A stretch of 64,000 nucleotides of DNA from Terriglobia bacterium (GTDB lineage Bacteria; Acidobacteriota; Terriglobia; Acidiferrales; UBA7541), in contig JAIQGG010000001.1 of assembly GCA_020072785.1 (NCBI GenBank), positions 62,001-126,000 of the forward strand. Reading direction: 5' to 3'. The notes beneath the pieces are model-generated. The model saw only the letters and a list, made by a program, of their open reading frames with translations, was not told the origin of the DNA and did no database searches. The position numbers and the translations under genes are program-made. This document shows positions 4,773 to 16,214 of the stretch, one piece after another (the first letter of the stretch is position 1; every line of letters begins with the position of its first letter).

Positions 4773-4933
4773 GTGTCTTGGCGCGGATGCGATCCGCGGG
4801 GAGGCTCCGGAGCGTCAGAGGGGAAGCAGTTCGAAAACGGACAGTTTTCGGCAAGGGCGAAAAAGGATATCTTCAAGGAAGTAACCGCTTGCACCAGTCG
4901 AATTTTCCACGAGGATAGCCGCGAGGAGCGCCC

Positions 4934-5377
4934 ATGCACTCTGGCTCGCCGCAGAAAACCAGAGCGGCGCTGAAAAATCCGCTGCTGTACACGTCGCTGG
5001 CGCTGGGCGTGGCCCTGCTCTATGTGGCCTGGATTTTTTTCGGACGCTGGCAGGAGAACCGCGCGCTGGAACAGCGCGCGGCGGAGAAGCGGCGCGCCGA
5101 GGACCGGCGGACGGTGGAATCCCTGGGCGGGAAGCGCCTGGAAATCCAGACTTTTTATGCTTCTCCGGGGATGGTGCGGCGCGGGGAGACGGCGCAGTTG
5201 TGCTATGGGGTGGCCAACGCCAAGAAGGTGACGCTGGAGCCGCCGGTTGGACCGGTGTGGCCGTCGTATTCCCGCTGCCTGGACGTAAACCCAACGAATG
5301 ACACGACCTACACCCTGACCGTGGAAGATGGCCAGGGAAACAGCAAGAGCGCGACGCTGACCATCCAGGTGCGCTAG
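4934..5377 (+). CDS. Small membrane-anchored protein with an Ig-like C-terminal domain
   Basis: This encodes 147 residues, with GAGGAG upstream of the ATG. A positively charged N-terminus is followed by one membrane segment (about residues 16-36, YTSLALGVALLYVAWIFFG), a charged coiled-coil-like linker (QENRALEQRAAEKRR), and an all-beta domain with the pattern of Ig-like repeats (YTLTVEDGQGNSKSATLTIQV). The topology is probably one helix with the beta domain in the periplasm. No function is recognised. It lies between the TonB receptor and greA on the same strand but is spaced from both. Confidence 0.7.
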   Translation: MHSGSPQKTRAALKNPLLYTSLALGVALLYVAWIFFGRWQENRALEQRAAEKRRAEDRRTVESLGGKRLEIQTFYASPGMVRRGETAQLCYGVANAKKVTLEPPVGPVWPSYSRCLDVNPTNDTTYTLTVEDGQGNSKSATLTIQVR

Positions 5378-5519
5378 GCAGCCGCGCGGCGGCCATCCAG
5401 GGACCAAGCCGGAGTTGCTCTTGTGGCGGGAAATCGCCCCACACTATAATAGAAGCTTGCGGGGATAGACCGGCCTCCCAGTGGCCGCTCGCCCCGCAAG
5501 ACCTTTTTGGAAGAGACCT

Positions 5520-5999
5520 ATGTCCGACCCACTGAGCAAGATCAAGAAAAAGCTTCAGGAAGAGATCGCCGCGCTGGAGCACGAGCTGAACATTGAGCTC
5601 CCCAAGGAGATCGCGGTGGCGCGGGCCCACGGCGACCTCTCCGAGAACGCGGAATACAAGTACGCCAAGGAGCGGCAGGGATACGTCAACGCGAAAATCG
5701 GCCACCTGAAAAAGCGCATGGGCGACCTGGGGATGCTGAACCTGACGAACATCCCGAAAGACCGCTCGGGCTACGGCTCGCGCATCTGGGTGATGGATGT
5801 GCAGAGGTCCGTGAAGGTGGAATACAAGCTGGTGAGCACCGAGGAAGCCGACGTGGAGAAGGGGCTGCTCTCCACGACCTCGCCGATCGGCAAGGCGCTG
5901 CTCAACCGGCGCGTGGGCGACGAGGTGCAGGTGCAGACGCCCGCGGGAATCAAAGAGTTCGAAATCGTGCGCCTGCTGACCATCCACGAAGACGACTAG
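5520..5999 (+). CDS. greA: Transcription elongation factor GreA
   Basis: This encodes 159 residues, the usual GreA length. ATG 5520 gives a start matching the family; an in-frame extension to 5481 is unneeded. The N-terminal coiled coil (about 1-75) has the acidic tip region DLSENAEYKYAKERQG, the hallmark that reaches into the RNA polymerase secondary channel and stimulates transcript cleavage. The C-terminal FKBP-like domain ends STTSPIGKALLNRRVGDEV, also typical. A hydrophobic residue in the DLGMLNL linker region precedes a domain slightly more divergent than in E. coli, but the family call is secure. Confidence 0.95.
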   Translation: MSDPLSKIKKKLQEEIAALEHELNIELPKEIAVARAHGDLSENAEYKYAKERQGYVNAKIGHLKKRMGDLGMLNLTNIPKDRSGYGSRIWVMDVQRSVKVEYKLVSTEEADVEKGLLSTTSPIGKALLNRRVGDEVQVQTPAGIKEFEIVRLLTIHEDD

Positions 6000-6141
6000 A
6001 TTTTCCACCGGAATTGCGCGGGACACTTTCCTGCCTGTCCCGTTGCTGCGCAAAACGATAAAACCAAGAGGACCGGCAGGAATGCCTGTCTTGCTTCCTC
6101 CCGTCTGGACAAAGCGGCAGCGCTTTGCCATGCTCGCCGGG

Positions 6142-7059
6142 ATGAAACCCTCTCTGATCGTGCATGGTGGCGCGTGGGATATTCCGGACGAGGCGGTGGA
6201 AGCCTGCCAGGATGGCCTGCGGCGCGCCCTGGAGGCCGGCTGGGCGATCCTGTTGCGCGGGGGCGCGGCGCTGGACGCGGTGGAAGCGGTGATCGTGGTC
6301 CTCGAAGACGCCCCGGTCTTTGACGCGGGCACCGGCTCGCACCTGAACCTGGACGGGCGCGTCGAATGCGACGCCATCGTGATGGACGGTGAGACGCTGC
6401 GCGCCGGCGCGGTGGCCGCGGTGCAGCGCATCCGCAATCCGATCCGCCTGGCGCGCGCGGTGCTGGAGAACTGCGCGCACATGATGCTGGTCGGGGAAGG
6501 CGCGGAGCGCTACGCGAAAGACCAGGGCATGGCCTGGTGCGATCCGGAAGAGCTGGTGACGGCGGCGGAGCGCGAAGCCTGGAAACGCTGCCGCGAGGGA
6601 ATGCACGCCGCGGCGCACCACCGGGGCCACGAGCAGGGCACGGTCGGCGCGGTGGCGGTGGATCGCGAGGGACGGCTCGTCGCCGGGACCTCGACGGGCG
6701 GCACCTGCTGCAAGCTTCCCGGGCGTGTCGGCGATTCCCCGCTGATCGGCTGCGGCTGCTATGCCGATGCCACCGCCGGCGGGGTCTCCTGCACGGGCCA
6801 TGGCGAGGCCATCATGAAAATCGTGATGGCCAAGACCGCGGCGGACAACCTGCGGCGGCTCGCGGACTCGGATGAAAAACCGGCGGAGCTGGCCATGCTG
6901 GCGGCCCGCGAAGCGGTGCGCGTGCTGGCGGAACGCGGCCGCGGCACGGGCGGGCTGATCCTGCTCGACCCCGACGGCAATCCCGGCTACGCCTTCAACA
7001 CCCCGCGCATGGCCTACGGCCTGGTGGACGCGCGCGGCGCGCTCGTCACTGGGGTCTAG
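6142..7059 (+). CDS. iaaA: Isoaspartyl peptidase / L-asparaginase (Ntn hydrolase)
   Basis: This encodes 305 residues from ATG 6142; an upstream ATG at 6130 is possible. It is a plant-type asparaginase that cleaves isoaspartyl dipeptides and asparagine. The family matures by autocleavage before a threonine that becomes the nucleophile. Here that is Thr167 in EQGTVGAVAVD, splitting the product into alpha and beta chains. Other family blocks are LIVHGGAW at the N-terminus, DAGTGSHLN, STGGTCCKLPGRVGDSPLIG and GYAFNTPRM. There is no signal peptide, so it is probably cytoplasmic and serves in peptide turnover. It follows greA by 140 bases without clear operon evidence. Confidence 0.9.
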   Translation: MKPSLIVHGGAWDIPDEAVEACQDGLRRALEAGWAILLRGGAALDAVEAVIVVLEDAPVFDAGTGSHLNLDGRVECDAIVMDGETLRAGAVAAVQRIRNPIRLARAVLENCAHMMLVGEGAERYAKDQGMAWCDPEELVTAAEREAWKRCREGMHAAAHHRGHEQGTVGAVAVDREGRLVAGTSTGGTCCKLPGRVGDSPLIGCGCYADATAGGVSCTGHGEAIMKIVMAKTAADNLRRLADSDEKPAELAMLAAREAVRVLAERGRGTGGLILLDPDGNPGYAFNTPRMAYGLVDARGALVTGV

Positions 7060-7222: not shown

Positions 7223-8044
7223 CTAGCGGCGGGAAGAGCGGTTTGCCAGGCGGCCGTGGTACAGGTCGGCGATGGCGTAGGTGACGCCGGCGAAGACGGT
7301 GACCCGGGGCAGATGGCCGTAGACGGCGTAATAGGCGCCGGCGTCGAGAACCAGCCAGGGGCGCAGCGCGTAAGTGGGAGCAGCGAGCAGGGTCAGCGTC
7401 GCCGGCGAATCAGTGTTGGCCCAGCTGAAACCAGCAATCTCCGCGGTCACGCCCCACTGTTTCGTGAAGGAAGTAGACCAGGAGAGCGCGGAGAAGTAGC
7501 TGCGGTCTAGGCCGCTGGCGCCCTGCCGCCCGAGAAAGTTCACACCTTCGTTGACGTCGAAATGCTGCTTTCCGAAATCCTTGCTGACCAGGACAAGCGC
7601 CTGGTGACTCGTGGCGCCGATTCCCAGGCCGTTTCCCGCCGTCGGCAAAAACGCCGAATACAATACGGAAACCGTGGGCCGCTTGCCTTTCTGCGGAAAC
7701 ATCTTCCATTTGAAGCCCGCGCCGCAATCGCCCATTGCGGAGATACCGCCGTCGCGTTCATAAGGATTATGAAGAAAGCGAAGTTCCAGGTTTTTGAACA
7801 GGCCGAACTTGATCAACCCGTTGATGTTCTGGTGCCCGCGGCCACCTTCGAAACCGTATTCGATTTCCAGGACTCCGCGCTGTACGGCCTCTCCGGTAGT
7901 GGCCAGCGTCGGGCGATTAGGCACGGCCGCGATTTGCTCCCCGCCGGGGTCCGGGGCCTGCGCAAAGACGCGCGGAATGCAAGGTCCGAACCCGATCGTG
8001 GAGAAGGCCAGGGCGGTGATGGCGGCTTTGCTCGGTATACGCAT
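7223..8044 (-). CDS. Predicted outer-membrane beta-barrel protein
   Basis: This encodes 273 residues with a signal peptide (hydrophobic ITALAFSTIGFG, then VFAQA). The mature part has alternating hydrophobic strands with aromatic girdles (LEIEYGFEGG, LELRFLHNPYE, VSVLYSAFLPT, WLVLDAGAYYAV, VTVFAGVTYAI). The pattern resembles the MetA-pathway/phenol-degradation type of outer-membrane channels (PF13557-like). I see no strong Shine-Dalgarno at the chosen ATG, so the exact start is less sure. It is convergent with the peptidase gene upstream and divergent from the EF-G-like gene. Confidence 0.7.
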   Translation of the reverse strand: MRIPSKAAITALAFSTIGFGPCIPRVFAQAPDPGGEQIAAVPNRPTLATTGEAVQRGVLEIEYGFEGGRGHQNINGLIKFGLFKNLELRFLHNPYERDGGISAMGDCGAGFKWKMFPQKGKRPTVSVLYSAFLPTAGNGLGIGATSHQALVLVSKDFGKQHFDVNEGVNFLGRQGASGLDRSYFSALSWSTSFTKQWGVTAEIAGFSWANTDSPATLTLLAAPTYALRPWLVLDAGAYYAVYGHLPRVTVFAGVTYAIADLYHGRLANRSSRR

Positions 8045-10648: not shown

Positions 10649-12196
10649 TCAGGATTTCCGATCCAGCACATCCCGGATCTTGCGTCCAAGAATGTTGGGA
10701 ACGTAGGGTTTTTGCAGAATCATGACGTTGTCTTTCACCATCGAAGCGAGCAAGGCGGATTCTGAAGAATACCCGGTGGTGAAGATCACCGGGATCTCCG
10801 GCCGGATCGCCCGCATGCGCACCAGCGCGTCCGGGCCGCTCATCAGGGGCATGACCACGTCGAGCAGCAGGAGGTCAATGGACTCCTGGTGCTGCAGGAA
10901 CAGCCGCAGGGCTTCCTCGCCATTCGCGGCTAAGAGTACGCGATAATCCAGCGATTTCAGAATTTCCTGGATGGCTTCGCGGAGATCTTCGTTGTCCTCC
11001 GCCAGGAGAATTGTTTCAGTTCCGCCACGGACTTCGCAGGCCAGGATTTCCTTGTGAGTTTCCGCCGGCCCGGCGCCCACGGGAAGATAGACGCGAAAGG
11101 TCGTGCCGCGGTTCACTTCGCTCTCGGCAAATACGTATCCGTTGTGCTGTTTCACAATTCCGTACACCGTGGCGAGTCCTAGACCGGTTCCCTGGCCAAG
11201 TTCTTTCGTCGTGTAAAACGGTTCGAAAATGCGCTCCATCGTCTGCGCATCCATTCCCGTACCGCTATCCGACACGGAGAGCAGCGCATAGGAGCCGGGA
11301 CGCACAAACTCGGGAAACGAACCGCGGCCCTCGCCGATTTCGACTTCTTTTGTTTCGATGAGCAGTTTTCCTCCCTGCGGCATCGCGTCTCGTGCATTCA
11401 AGCAGAGATTGGTCAGCACTTGTTCCGCCTGGCTGGGGTCCGCCCAGACGGGTCCTAGATCGGGAGCCAGGTGGATCTGGACCTGAATCTGTTCTCCGAT
11501 CACTTTGCGGAGAAGATTGAGAGTCTCCGTGACCAATCCGTTCAGTTCGATATTGCGCGTTTGGAGGATCTGCCGCCGGGCAAATGCCAGCAGCTGCCGG
11601 GTCAGCCCCGCGGCGCGCTGCGCCTGGTCGTGAATCTTCTTGAAGCGTTCGCGAAAACGGTTGTCGGGCGGGAGTTCGTCATATCCCAGTGTCGCCCAGC
11701 TCAGGATGGCGGCGAGGGCGTTATTGAAATCGTGGGCGATTCCGCCCGCCAGCTGTCCAATGGATTCGAAGCGCTGCAATTGCCGGACCTGCAATTCCAG
11801 ACGCTTGCGCTCCTGGCGTTCCCTGTATTCGCGCAGCTCGCGCTGCACCGCGGGGACCAGTCGGCTCAAGTTGCCTTTCATCAGGTAATCCTGGGCCCCG
11901 CATTTCAGCGCCGCGACCGCCGTTTCCTCGCCGATGGTGCCGGAAACGAAGATGAAGGGGATTTCCAGGCCATTCGACCGCGCCATATTCAGGGCATCAA
12001 AGCCGGAGAAGTGGGGCATGGAATAGTCCGAGAGGATCAGGTCCCACTTTTCGGCATGAATCGCCGCAGTCATTGCCGCCGCGGAATCGATCCGCTGAGC
12101 CGTCACCTCGAAGCCCCCGTGCTGGAGCTCGCGGAGAAGCAGCTCGGCGTCGTCTTCAGAATCCTCGACGATGAGCAAACGAAGCGGCGTCCTCAT
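10649..12196 (-). CDS. Hybrid sensor kinase: receiver, histidine kinase, receiver
   Basis: This encodes 515 residues. An N-terminal receiver (1-125) has phosphoacceptor Asp57 in LILSDYSMP. A HisKA domain of the NtrB-like type follows, with His155 in AGGIAHDFNN, then HATPase_c (LNARDAM, DSGTGMD, GQGTGLGLATVYG) and a C-terminal receiver (LLLLDVVMP, TTGYS, KPY). There is no membrane segment, so it is soluble. Its ATG directly follows the TGA of the upstream response regulator (12199-12197, then 12196), which implies translational coupling. As the third gene of the operon it can receive phosphate at the N-terminal receiver and pass it to its own C-terminal receiver or elsewhere. No DNA-binding output is present in the operon. 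Confidence 0.92.
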   Translation of the reverse strand: MRTPLRLLIVEDSEDDAELLLRELQHGGFEVTAQRIDSAAAMTAAIHAEKWDLILSDYSMPHFSGFDALNMARSNGLEIPFIFVSGTIGEETAVAALKCGAQDYLMKGNLSRLVPAVQRELREYRERQERKRLELQVRQLQRFESIGQLAGGIAHDFNNALAAILSWATLGYDELPPDNRFRERFKKIHDQAQRAAGLTRQLLAFARRQILQTRNIELNGLVTETLNLLRKVIGEQIQVQIHLAPDLGPVWADPSQAEQVLTNLCLNARDAMPQGGKLLIETKEVEIGEGRGSFPEFVRPGSYALLSVSDSGTGMDAQTMERIFEPFYTTKELGQGTGLGLATVYGIVKQHNGYVFAESEVNRGTTFRVYLPVGAGPAETHKEILACEVRGGTETILLAEDNEDLREAIQEILKSLDYRVLLAANGEEALRLFLQHQESIDLLLLDVVMPLMSGPDALVRMRAIRPEIPVIFTTGYSSESALLASMVKDNVMILQKPYVPNILGRKIRDVLDRKS

Positions 12197-12646
12197 TCAG
12201 ATCCTCCGGGGGCTGGGGGGCGGTTCATTCAGAATCAGCCAGTACAATCCAAGCTGCCGTACGGCTTCGATAAACTCCCCGAACTCAACGGGCTTGCGCA
12301 CATAACTGTTCGCCCCAAGGCCGTATCCGTTGATGCGGTCCTTTTCTTCATTCGACGAAGTGAGGATCACGACCGGAAGCAGCCGCGTGCGTCCGTCCGC
12401 ACGCAGCCGCTTCAAAACCTCGAATCCATCCAGCTTCGGCAGTTTGAGGTCCAGAAGAACTACCTGGGGCATCACGCGTGTGTCTCGCCCGGAGTGGATC
12501 CCTTGTCCAAAAAGGAAGTCGATCGCTTCCTGCCCATCCCGGGCGGTCACGACTTCGTTGCTGATATTGTTCCTCTTCAAAGCGCGCAAGGTGAGTGCTT
12601 CATCATCGGGATTGTCTTCCACGAGCAAGATTGCGGTATCGTCCAT
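12197..12646 (-). CDS. Single-domain response regulator (Rcp1-like)
   Basis: This encodes 149 residues. ATG 12646 is chosen for the AGGGGAGG six bases upstream; a longer in-frame extension reads into the kinase gene. It is a stand-alone receiver with acidic pair Glu10/Asp11, phosphoacceptor Asp66 in VVLLDLKLP, Thr/Ser in ILTSSNEE and the conserved Lys in YVRKP. The insert FLFGQG around residue 45 and the overall pattern are like the Rcp1 regulators that pair with phytochrome-type kinases. It has no output domain and probably shuttles phosphate between the kinase upstream and the hybrid kinase downstream. Confidence 0.92.
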   Translation of the reverse strand: MDDTAILLVEDNPDDEALTLRALKRNNISNEVVTARDGQEAIDFLFGQGIHSGRDTRVMPQVVLLDLKLPKLDGFEVLKRLRADGRTRLLPVVILTSSNEEKDRINGYGLGANSYVRKPVEFGEFIEAVRQLGLYWLILNEPPPSPRRI

Positions 12647-12672
12647 GCGTACCTCCCCTTCAACGGCTACCC

Positions 12673-13809
12673 TCAAACGGTGAAATAAAACGTTGCGCCT
12701 TTTTCGACAGCGCCTTCGGCCCATACGCGGCCGCCCAGGCGGTGGATAATGCGCTGCACGGTTGCCAAACCCACCCCGGTTCCGGGAAACTCGCTGGCGC
12801 TGTGGAGCCGCTGGAATACGCCGAAGAGGCGCTGGGCATAGGCCGAATCAAAACCCGCGCCGTCGTCTTTCACGAAAAAGATGGATTCCTTTTCGTTCCG
12901 GAGCTTTCCGAACTCGATGCGTGCCGCGGGGTGTTTGGAAGTGAACTTCCAGGCATTGCTGAGCAAATTATCCAGTACGATTCGCAGCAGGTGCGGGTCC
13001 GCTTCGGCCTCCAGACCCGCTGCCGCGTGAAACTCTACGCTGCGCCCGGGATACGTCTTCAGCAGCTCTGCCGCTACCGACCGCGCCAGAGCGCTCAGGT
13101 CTACTCTTTCCCTGCGGATCTCAAACCGCGTCACCCGGGATAAATTCAGAAGGTCGTCAATCAGCGTTCCCATGCGCTGGGTCGCGCCTCTCACGCGCAA
13201 GAGATGGTTCTGTCCTCCGGCATCCAGTTTGTCCCCATAGTCCTCGAGCAAAGCCTGGCTGAAGCCGTCAATGCTCCGCAGGGGGGCGCGGAGATCGTGA
13301 GAGACCGAATAACAGAAAGCCTCCAGTTCCTGGTTCGCTGCTTCCATCAGCGCGCTTTGCCGCCGGACCTTTCCTTCCGCCTGTTTGCGCTCCTGGATTT
13401 CCGCCTGCAGCGCTTCATTGGCCCTTCGCAGTTCCTCGGGGCGGGGAAGAGCCAGCGCCTGCGGCATGAGATGAACAAGGAGAATGGCGGTCGGCACGGA
13501 AGCCAGGGCGGTCAGCGCTTTGATGCCCCCGGAAAGCCAATAGGCGGGGATCCAGAGAGTCACGACCTCCATGACGTGTGTGGCGCCACAAGCGACAATA
13601 AATATTCCAAAGCACAGGAACATCCAGTTGAAGGGCACGTCCTTCCGTTTGCGGATGAAATAAGTGAGCGTGAGCGGGATAGAGATGTACGCCAGTGCGA
13701 CCAAAGTGTCCGAAATCACGTGCAGCCAGACGAGCTTCCAATTCCAGAGGTAACAGAATCCATGGGGCATGAAAGGGCCGGGGGACAACAGATTGCGGAG
13801 AAACTGCAT
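12673..13809 (-). CDS. Sensor histidine kinase with ethylene-receptor-type membrane domain
   Basis: This encodes 378 residues, with a strong GGGAGGAAGG before the ATG. Residues about 25-115 form three membrane helices that match the ethylene-binding domain of plant ETR1. Every residue known to matter there is present at a constant offset of nine: Asp34 (D25), Tyr41 (Y32), Ile44 (I35), Pro45 (P36), Ile71 (I62), and the copper ligands Cys74 (C65) and His78 (H69) in CGATH. A short coiled coil leads to a HisKA domain with His171 in YSVSHDLRAP, then HATPase_c (NLLSNAWKF, DDGAGFD, GTGVGLATV). There is no GAF domain, unlike plant ETR1. First gene of an operon with the Rcp1-like regulator (26-base gap) and the hybrid kinase. 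The family call is firm; ethylene as ligand is inferred. Confidence 0.92.
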   Translation of the reverse strand: MQFLRNLLSPGPFMPHGFCYLWNWKLVWLHVISDTLVALAYISIPLTLTYFIRKRKDVPFNWMFLCFGIFIVACGATHVMEVVTLWIPAYWLSGGIKALTALASVPTAILLVHLMPQALALPRPEELRRANEALQAEIQERKQAEGKVRRQSALMEAANQELEAFCYSVSHDLRAPLRSIDGFSQALLEDYGDKLDAGGQNHLLRVRGATQRMGTLIDDLLNLSRVTRFEIRRERVDLSALARSVAAELLKTYPGRSVEFHAAAGLEAEADPHLLRIVLDNLLSNAWKFTSKHPAARIEFGKLRNEKESIFFVKDDGAGFDSAYAQRLFGVFQRLHSASEFPGTGVGLATVQRIIHRLGGRVWAEGAVEKGATFYFTV

Positions 13810-14072
13810 GGCCTTCCTCCCAACTCACAAGGAAAATTGCTGTGACTGGGCAGGAAGGGGGGGTGCCCGGGCAAGACGATCGACGATCGCTCTCCTAGCA
13901 ATTTTGAAGGATCGCGGGGTCCTGTCAACATTAAACTTGCGGATATCTCCCAAAGCGGCAATCCTGAAGCTGCCATTTTATGCGCGGCTCTGAACGAGGT
14001 CGCCCGCGGAAGCAACCCAGCGTCCAATTTGGAGGCTGTTTTTTTCAGGAGGAAAGTGCAGAATCGTAACTC

Positions 14073-15257
14073 ATGAAAAAACCCACCCCTGCGAAATACG
14101 GCACCCAGACCACGGCCATTCATGCCGGAGAGGCGGCGCGGCACGGCGTCAGCGCGCCAGTGGATACACCCATCGTCCGCTCGTCCACCTTCACGTTTCC
14201 CAATACCCGGGAGATGAAGCGCTGGGCCGAGGGCAAGAGCAAAGCGTACATCTACACGCGCTACGGCAATCCCACGCTGGCCGTCGCCGAGGAAAAGATT
14301 GCGGCGCTGGAGGGCACGGAAGCCGCGGTGGTGACAGCCTCGGGGATGGCCGCGATCTCCTCCGCGCTCCTCGCCGTGTTGAAAGCCGGAGATGAAGTCA
14401 TCTCCACGGCCCAGCTCTACGGCGGAAGCTACCGCCTGATGCGCGACATTCTCCCGGACCTGGGCATCCACGCGCGGTTTGTGGAAGCGGACCTCGCCGG
14501 CATCGGCGGCTGCCTGACCCCGCGCACAAAAGCGCTGTACGTCGAAACGCCGACCAATCCGACGCTGCGCCTGGTGGACCTGCACAAGGCTGTGTCTTTT
14601 GCCAAAGAGCACGGCTTGGTCTCCCTGATCGACAATACTTTCGCCACTCCCATCCTGCAGCAGCCGGCGGCTCTGGGTTACGACCTCATCGCGCACAGCG
14701 CCACGAAGTATCTCGGCGGGCATACCGACCTGATCGCCGGTGCGGTGGCGGGGAGCCGCGAGTGGGTCGCGCGCGTGCGCCGGATGGTCATCTATCTCGG
14801 GGGCTCGATGGACCCGCAGGCGGCGCACCTGCTGCTCCGCGGCATACGCACGCTGGGCGTGCGCGTCGAGCGCCAGTGCGCCAACGCGATGGCCGTGGCG
14901 AAATTCCTGGAGAAGCATCCGAAGGTCGCGCGGGTGCATTACCCCGGCCTGGCCTCGCACCCGGACCACCGGCTGGCGAAAAAGCAGATGCGCGGCTTCG
15001 GAACGATGATGGCTTTCGATCTGAAGGGCGGGCTGCCCGCGGCCAGCCGCTTCTGCGACCGCGTGCGGCTGTTTCTGCTGGCGGCCAGCCTGGGCGGGGT
15101 GGAATCGCTGGTGGTGCTGCCTATCTACACCTCGCACTACAACATGAGCAAGGAAGAACTGCAGCGGGCGGGGGTGCGTCCGGGGACGGTGCGCGTCTCG
15201 GTGGGGCTGGAAGACGCCCCCGACCTCCTCGCGGATTTGCGGCAGGCGCTGGCCTAG
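14073..15257 (+). CDS. Cys/Met metabolism PLP-dependent enzyme (cystathionine synthase/lyase family)
   Basis: This encodes 394 residues. It covers the whole fold-type I Cys/Met family: N-terminal TTAIHAGE, the Tyr/Arg block YTRYGNPT that contacts PLP of the neighbouring subunit, SGMAAIS, ETPTNPT, DNTFATP, the PLP lysine Lys212 in HSATKYLGGH, and the C-terminal RVSVGLED. Cystathionine gamma-synthase, cystathionine gamma-lyase, beta-lyase and methionine gamma-lyase cannot be separated from these motifs, so no symbol is given. AGGAGG lies about 19 bases upstream of the ATG, rather far. I see no SAM riboswitch in the 260 bases upstream. It is divergent from the kinase operon. Confidence 0.9.
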   Translation: MKKPTPAKYGTQTTAIHAGEAARHGVSAPVDTPIVRSSTFTFPNTREMKRWAEGKSKAYIYTRYGNPTLAVAEEKIAALEGTEAAVVTASGMAAISSALLAVLKAGDEVISTAQLYGGSYRLMRDILPDLGIHARFVEADLAGIGGCLTPRTKALYVETPTNPTLRLVDLHKAVSFAKEHGLVSLIDNTFATPILQQPAALGYDLIAHSATKYLGGHTDLIAGAVAGSREWVARVRRMVIYLGGSMDPQAAHLLLRGIRTLGVRVERQCANAMAVAKFLEKHPKVARVHYPGLASHPDHRLAKKQMRGFGTMMAFDLKGGLPAASRFCDRVRLFLLAASLGGVESLVVLPIYTSHYNMSKEELQRAGVRPGTVRVSVGLEDAPDLLADLRQALA

Positions 15258-15260
15258 GGC

Positions 15261-16010
15261 TCAGCCGGCGTCCACGGGCAGGGTTCGCGCCCCGGGCAGC
15301 AGGGAATCGACGATCTCTTCCATCTCCTGCACGCTGGCGACGTCTTTGGGGTAGTCGTACTGCAGGACCTGGGAGGAAAATTTTGCGCTCTCCCCGACCG
15401 CGCGGAGAAATTCGCCCACGCGGAGCGTAAGCTGCCTGGCTGTTTCCGGAGAGAGATCCGGCAGGATCACGCCGAACAGACCCGTCCCGAATTGGTAGAT
15501 GGAGTCGGTGGGGCGCAGTTTGCGGGCCAAGGCCCGGGCCGCTTCGCCGAGGGCGGTCTTGCCCGCCGGCGTATTGGCTTCGTTATCCTCGAGGGTCACC
15601 TGCACCAGAAGCAGGGAAAGGGCGCTATTCTGGCTGGCCGCGCGGCGGAATTCCTGCGTCAGGCGGTGCTGAAAGTGGTTCATGTCCGGGATGGTCTGCA
15701 GGACGTCCACGCTGGCCTGATCGCGCAATTGCAGGTTGCGGTTGAGCTCTTCGAGCAGGCGCCTTTTCAGTTCGCGCACGGTGGAGTGGCGGTCCAGCAG
15801 GTAGCCCACAAAAAGCAGGGACAGCGTGCAGAAGCCGAAGAAGGCGATGCGCGGCGTCCATTTGTTGACTGGGTCCACGTGCACGAAGACCAGCGGGTAC
15901 ATGAGCAGGGCGACGCCGCTCGCGAGAACCAGGACGATCAACGCGGACAGAATCGTCAGATGCAGCTCGCGGCGCTCCAGTTTGTCCAGTTCGGCACGAT
16001 CAAAGGCCAT
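15261..16010 (-). CDS. Membrane protein with degenerate GGDEF domain
   Basis: This encodes 249 residues from ATG 16010. Two membrane helices (about residues 17-40 and 55-75) are followed by a coiled-coil linker and a GGDEF-like domain (about 105-245). The family landmarks remain (ILPDLSPETARQLTLRV), but the signature loop reads FGTGLF where active cyclases have GG(D/E)EF, so di-GMP synthesis is not expected. It could be a receptor or a structural remnant. It is convergent with the PLP enzyme, with only three bases between the stops. Confidence 0.75.
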   Translation of the reverse strand: MAFDRAELDKLERRELHLTILSALIVLVLASGVALLMYPLVFVHVDPVNKWTPRIAFFGFCTLSLLFVGYLLDRHSTVRELKRRLLEELNRNLQLRDQASVDVLQTIPDMNHFQHRLTQEFRRAASQNSALSLLLVQVTLEDNEANTPAGKTALGEAARALARKLRPTDSIYQFGTGLFGVILPDLSPETARQLTLRVGEFLRAVGESAKFSSQVLQYDYPKDVASVQEMEEIVDSLLPGARTLPVDAG

Positions 16011-16214
16011 AGTGGTCCAGACTCCGGCTTCCGGAAGCGGGCGCCCAAGCGGCACCGCGCGGGGAAGAAAGCACCCTTCTCTAGAAATTGTGAGTGGAAA
16101 GAAGGCGGTGTTCAATAGAACTGTCCAGGGGTGTGACCTAGCTGCCATCCCAGGGCTTGTGCCGGCGGGAGGAAAACATGCCGGCCTGGGAAAAACCGGC
16201 GCTACCGGAGGGGG

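Follow-up and report, generated by a model that had tools for sequence, protein, structure and literature searches.

To our knowledge, ethylene receptors have been proven in only a few bacterial species, including Synechocystis and Azospirillum, for the latter of which no downstream target is known. The first 130 residues of the Azospirillum receptor, AzoEtr1, bind ethylene in yeast (PMC11819568). Ethylene inhibits the kinase activity of Arabidopsis ETR1 (AtETR1), and the same is thought of the Synechocystis receptor SynEtr1; the main signalling route of the plant receptors, as represented by AtETR1, is histidine-kinase-independent (PMC11819568). A further point of comparison is provided by LvrB, the structural prototype of the REC-controlled kinases, in which the catalytic domains are set free once an upstream kinase has phosphorylated the N-terminal REC domain (PMC13269768); LvrB is phosphorylated by LvrA (PMC5863495).

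The DNA examined here (the window) is a 64,000-nucleotide stretch of a contig from a Terriglobia bacterium. It encodes a sensor kinase, a single-domain receiver and a hybrid kinase in series on the minus strand (Table 1), and all three open reading frames were present where a first-pass annotation of the same DNA had placed them. The stop codon of the kinase and the ATG of the receiver are 26 bp apart, with GGGGAGG ahead of the latter, and the receiver TGA (12199-12197) and the hybrid ATG (12196) directly adjoin each other, as had been claimed. The possible promoter listed for the set is the single site returned by the sigma-70-like consensus scan, against 0.9 expected by chance. The catalytic boxes of the kinase (H171, N-box 280, G1 315, G2 343) and the receiver pockets (active-site motifs) of the cassette proteins are intact. 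Among solved structures, the kinase core is closest to the bacteriophytochrome kinases, and for the receiver the best matches are phytochrome response regulators, including 5ic5, 5brj, 6xvu, RcpA (1k68), RcpB and Rcp1 (1i3c), in agreement with its earlier description as Rcp1-like. The N-terminal REC of the hybrid lies immediately ahead of HisKA-HATPase_c, as in LvrB-like kinases, and a C-terminal REC is additional; its REC1-HK part matches LvrB (8vc9, LvrB residues 5-376) with an E value of 2.7e-53. Pfam recognised neither a membrane domain nor a DNA-binding domain in the hybrid, no DNA-binding protein was found nearby, and a comparison of neighbours across cassette loci gave no conserved fourth gene that could serve as output, so the proposal that the cassette has no DNA-binding output stands. 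No RNA families were found within the window.

Table 1. Features of the three-gene cassette, in window coordinates
Feature	Position	Strand	Description
Sensor histidine kinase, 378 aa	12673..13809	-	Pfam: ETR1_N (aa 26-121) + HisKA (aa 164-226) + HATPase_c (aa 271-377); predicted ethylene receptor
ETR1_N coding region (aa 26-121)	13447..13734	-	Match G000:C1:75447-75734, 141.6 bits; alignment
Single-domain response regulator, 149 aa	12197..12646 (ATG 12646)	-	Pfam Response_reg; phytochrome-type (Rcp1/BRR family), without output domain
Hybrid kinase, 515 aa	10649..12196	-	Pfam Response_reg-HisKA-HATPase_c-Response_reg (REC-HK-REC)
Possible sigma-70-like promoter for the cassette, TTGACA-16-CAAAAT	13901..13928	-	Consensus scan, weak

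The surroundings of the cassette were also inspected. Two open reading frames near it on the minus strand, at 4815-6482 (555 aa) and 7223-8044 (273 aa), have no Pfam match, and a GGDEF-domain protein is encoded two genes from the receptor kinase (15261-16148, minus strand). A divergent Cys/Met PLP enzyme (14073-15257) was considered as a functional partner and rejected, as it is not among the genes that recur next to other cassettes. The idea that the genome has another copy of the cassette was likewise discounted, as the nearest relative of the hybrid (C1:31.8-34 kb) is flanked by neither a kinase nor a receiver of this kind.

The membrane domain of the window kinase matches the Pfam ETR1_N family (PF25487) far above chance, with 138 bits against a curated cut-off of 27 and an E value of 1.2e-40. 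Over 133 aligned N-terminal residues it shares 50% identity with AzoEtr1 from A. brasilense Sp7, and its hydropathy profile has hydrophobic stretches at approximately residues 26-53, 56-89 and 94-121, which fit three N-terminal membrane helices; a search for a solved structure of an ETR1_N membrane domain found none. All seven residues required in AtETR1 for ethylene binding (D25, Y32, I35, P36, I62, C65 and H69) are kept, as D34, Y41, I44, P45, I71, C74 and H78, and these include the equivalents of the Cu ligands Cys65 and His69. The seven functional residues at a constant offset (+9) that the first-pass annotation had reported are thus confirmed by Pfam match and alignment. C and D mutants of AzoEtr1 at the equivalent positions serve as non-binding forms (PMC11819568), and its output lysine K98, which is K91 in AtETR1, is present as K97. 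Judged from its sequence, the window kinase is very probably an ethylene receptor. As a receptor it is ordinary, being one more member of a known and widespread family.

The receiver and hybrid were then compared across related genomes. Orthologous receiver and hybrid pairs are widespread in the family of the window, and receivers 70-78% identical to that of the window exist in relatives without any ETR1_N. At the 20 loci of the best receiver relatives, a REC-HK-REC relative of the window hybrid adjoins the receiver in 16, and 18 have an upstream kinase that shares the same core. None of these 18 front kinases contained ETR1_N when scanned; their sensors are CHASE3 (8), CHASE8-HAMP (5), PAS only (3) and DUF4118 (1), with no recognised sensor in the remaining one. 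The full set of ETR1_N kinase, receiver and hybrid is also found at three other loci of the family (L135, L138 and L140), and at a fourth (L136) kinase and hybrid occur with no receiver between them. Two verrucomicrobial loci (L053 and L055) are rearranged to the order hybrid, kinase, receiver. Because receiver and hybrid follow kinases with other sensors in most relatives, the dedicated ethylene operon put forward in the first-pass annotation is rejected.

Several features of the related loci bear on how the cassette parts may work. In Verrucomicrobia, a single chain of the order ETR1_N-HK-REC-PAS-HK (L048:5001-8021) resembles a fusion of cassette parts, and fits cooperation between them. As expected if sensor-specific partners travel with their sensor, the CHASE8 cassettes are adjoined by a YfiR-like gene (DUF4154), which precedes them at L203:5923-6534 and at equivalent positions in L204, L205 and L206; no such gene accompanies the window cassette. 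The same four loci share, also ahead of the cassette, a large open reading frame that is TonB-dependent receptor-like by eye, and together with the YfiR-like gene this hints at an envelope signal for the CHASE8 version of the cassette.

A phylogenetic tree of kinase cores placed the window kinase nearest to CHASE8 kinases of its own family (L204, 70% identity) and not to other ETR kinases. Its ETR1_N domain has its nearest relatives elsewhere (L046/L137 and L047, approximately 70%), one of which sits on a kinase of another type, PAS-HK-REC; input domain and kinase therefore have different histories. The ETR label changes 7 times on the kinase tree, with at least 3 of these changes forced by well-supported branches. 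A tree constrained to unite the five ETR kinases from the cassette loci of this family was rejected (p-AU 1.4e-8), whereas one uniting the window and L135 was not (p 0.30). ETR1_N has thus been joined to, or lost from, the cassette repeatedly, and as the change counts do not separate gains from losses, either may have recurred. In this family the cassette is modular: the receiver and hybrid stay constant, and the input domain of the kinase is what can be exchanged. We tentatively liken this arrangement to a plug-in board, in which ETR1_N, CHASE8 with YfiR, CHASE3-PAS and DUF4118 inputs have replaced one another time and again in front of a retained receiver and REC-controlled hybrid, and ethylene might then call up the same cellular response as other stimuli do in sister species.

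To place the domain itself, ETR1_N sequences were collected across genomes. A motif-based scan of GTDB genomes returned at least 587 relatives, a set that cannot be used for counting intact sites because the scan demanded the CG-TH motif; the best 80 of these come from Cyanobacteria, Verrucomicrobia, Acidobacteriota, Eremiobacterota, Proteobacteria and Myxococcota. The distribution is patchy, with ETR1_N found in 18 of 396 sampled Acidobacteriota, in 14 of 61 genomes of the window's family (the window's own genome counted) and in 1 of 13 other sampled genomes of its genus. Of 39 acidobacteriotal domains, the set found by the family model alone, 14 are complete for the seven residues, 12 retain the two copper ligands but are changed elsewhere among the seven, 10 are without a copper ligand and 3 are fragments. 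Many domains of the phylum have therefore lost binding residues, and the fold alone is no proof of ethylene binding; the window copy is intact.

The 12 domains in which the copper ligands outlast other binding residues might reflect a copper site that takes different ligands, and a copper-type P1B ATPase encoded in the genome (CPC motif, L146) also counts towards a reading in which ETR1_N binds Cu(I) but senses something else, be it the metal itself, a different small olefin or gas, or the redox state. We regard this as unlikely for the window copy, which has all seven residues like the proven ethylene binders AtETR1 and AzoEtr1. It is also conceivable, if distinctly improbable, that ETR1_N is a mere membrane anchor or dimerisation part in a kinase controlled by partners, with no role for ethylene: the fold is kept in members of the family that have lost C or H (L126, L145 and L016), and unrelated inputs serve other kinases of the cassette. 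Against this, seven residues kept in an otherwise variable domain imply selection on the site, and the degenerate copies lie mostly on long branches, whereas the window copy does not. In a domain tree of 127 columns that did not include SynEtr1, the window domain, AzoEtr1 and the intact domains are split from 13 divergent domains with support of 100/96, although the inner branches are weak because of the small number of columns. This phylogeny had been named beforehand as a possible refutation of the ethylene receptor; it groups the window domain with AzoEtr1 and the domains that have all seven residues, and not with the divergent group.

The same genome encodes a second ETR1_N protein, of the order ETR1_N-PAS-GAF-HK-REC (G000:C1:58630-58902; L002, L126:8351-11026), approximately 3.1 kb to the left of window position 1 and 16 kb from the window kinase. 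In its site the Asp is replaced by N, and both the Pro and the copper Cys by S, and it falls in the divergent group of the domain tree. This degraded paralogue provides a natural negative control, and the presence of intact and degenerate copies within one genome offers a contrast from which the needs of the site may be learned. In another family of the class, two genomes (G202 and G359; L010, L020, L021, L023-L026, L130 and L134) encode four ETR1_N proteins each, with mostly altered binding sites, an expansion accompanied by loss of the canonical residues. An ETR1_N kinase and receiver were also found on a conjugative Novosphingobium plasmid (L044:4986-6453), adjoining Cas9 and Cas1 genes, and ETR1_N systems can thus be mobile.

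The intact receptor domain, and the use of such a receptor by A. brasilense in root colonisation (PMC11819568), would agree with the suggestion of the first-pass annotation that a soil acidobacterium living near roots senses plant ethylene through a dedicated operon. We consider this highly improbable: the receiver and hybrid also accompany kinases other than ETR kinases, ETR1_N is patchily distributed, and a close ETR1_N relative (L046) is a metagenome-assembled genome from groundwater. A search for ACC deaminase as a link to plant ethylene found none at the search threshold, and the rhizosphere scenario is unsupported. Of the earlier interpretation, the receptor and the lack of a DNA-binding output are retained, and the dedicated operon and the plant-root setting are not.

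The domains, residues, gene order, cassette conservation and repeated sensor exchange observed here are, in our judgement, likely to be explained by a Cu(I)-dependent ethylene receptor kinase that feeds the receiver and REC-controlled hybrid of a modular cassette. From them we infer the copper and ethylene binding, the sign of the response, the order of phosphotransfer and the output as follows. The ETR1_N membrane domain would hold copper at C74 and H78 and bind ethylene, and binding would lower autophosphorylation at H171, a direction suggested by AtETR1, SynEtr1 and AzoEtr1. The kinase may donate phosphate to the single receiver of phytochrome type and probably also to REC1, the N-terminal receiver of the hybrid, an order from kinase to receiver to hybrid that follows the gene order. 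Phosphorylated REC1 would then switch on the hybrid's own kinase, as in LvrB, and this kinase would load its C-terminal receiver and a putative unlinked partner. Because ETR1_N has become paired on more than one occasion with a conserved relay that bears other sensors elsewhere, the response is open to study through those sensors, and ethylene input through domain exchange. In the open literature, outside which most subscription papers lie, we found no paper describing this cassette and none naming ethylene receptors in Acidobacteriota.

The cassette shares single elements with several known systems. Its kinase resembles AtETR1 in having an ethylene-binding-type membrane domain with the seven required residues. 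In the AzoEtr1-AzoRRetr1 pair of A. brasilense (PMC11819568), too, a histidine kinase begins with an ETR1_N domain bearing the same residues, and the next gene encodes a single-domain receiver. AzoEtr1 differs, however, in its PAS domain and kinase subtype (26% identity to the window kinase), its receiver is of another subtype (27% identity), and a scan of its 10 kb locus (L042) found no REC-HK-REC hybrid such as the window has; as kinase and receiver are of other types, the downstream behaviour of AzoEtr1 is not transferable to the window. SynEtr1 (slr1212) of Synechocystis, likened here by description, is also an ETR1_N histidine kinase that signals via a response regulator, slr1213, but it is a cyanobacteriochrome light sensor as well, and slr1213 acts on csiR1 transcription whereas the window has no DNA-binding regulator (PMC6682694). 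BphP-BRR and Cph1-Rcp1 are the nearest solved structures to the window kinase core and receiver, although the input of the window kinase is ETR1_N and not a bilin photosensor. With LvrA-LvrB of Leptospira (PMC5863495, PMC13269768), in which an upstream kinase feeds a REC-controlled kinase, the likeness comes from the sequence match of the hybrid, which differs from LvrB in its additional C-terminal receiver and in the separate receiver gene alongside. The less ordinary feature of the window is therefore the pairing of an ethylene receptor, as predicted here, with an exchangeable REC-controlled relay, unlike the pathways described in Synechocystis and Azospirillum.
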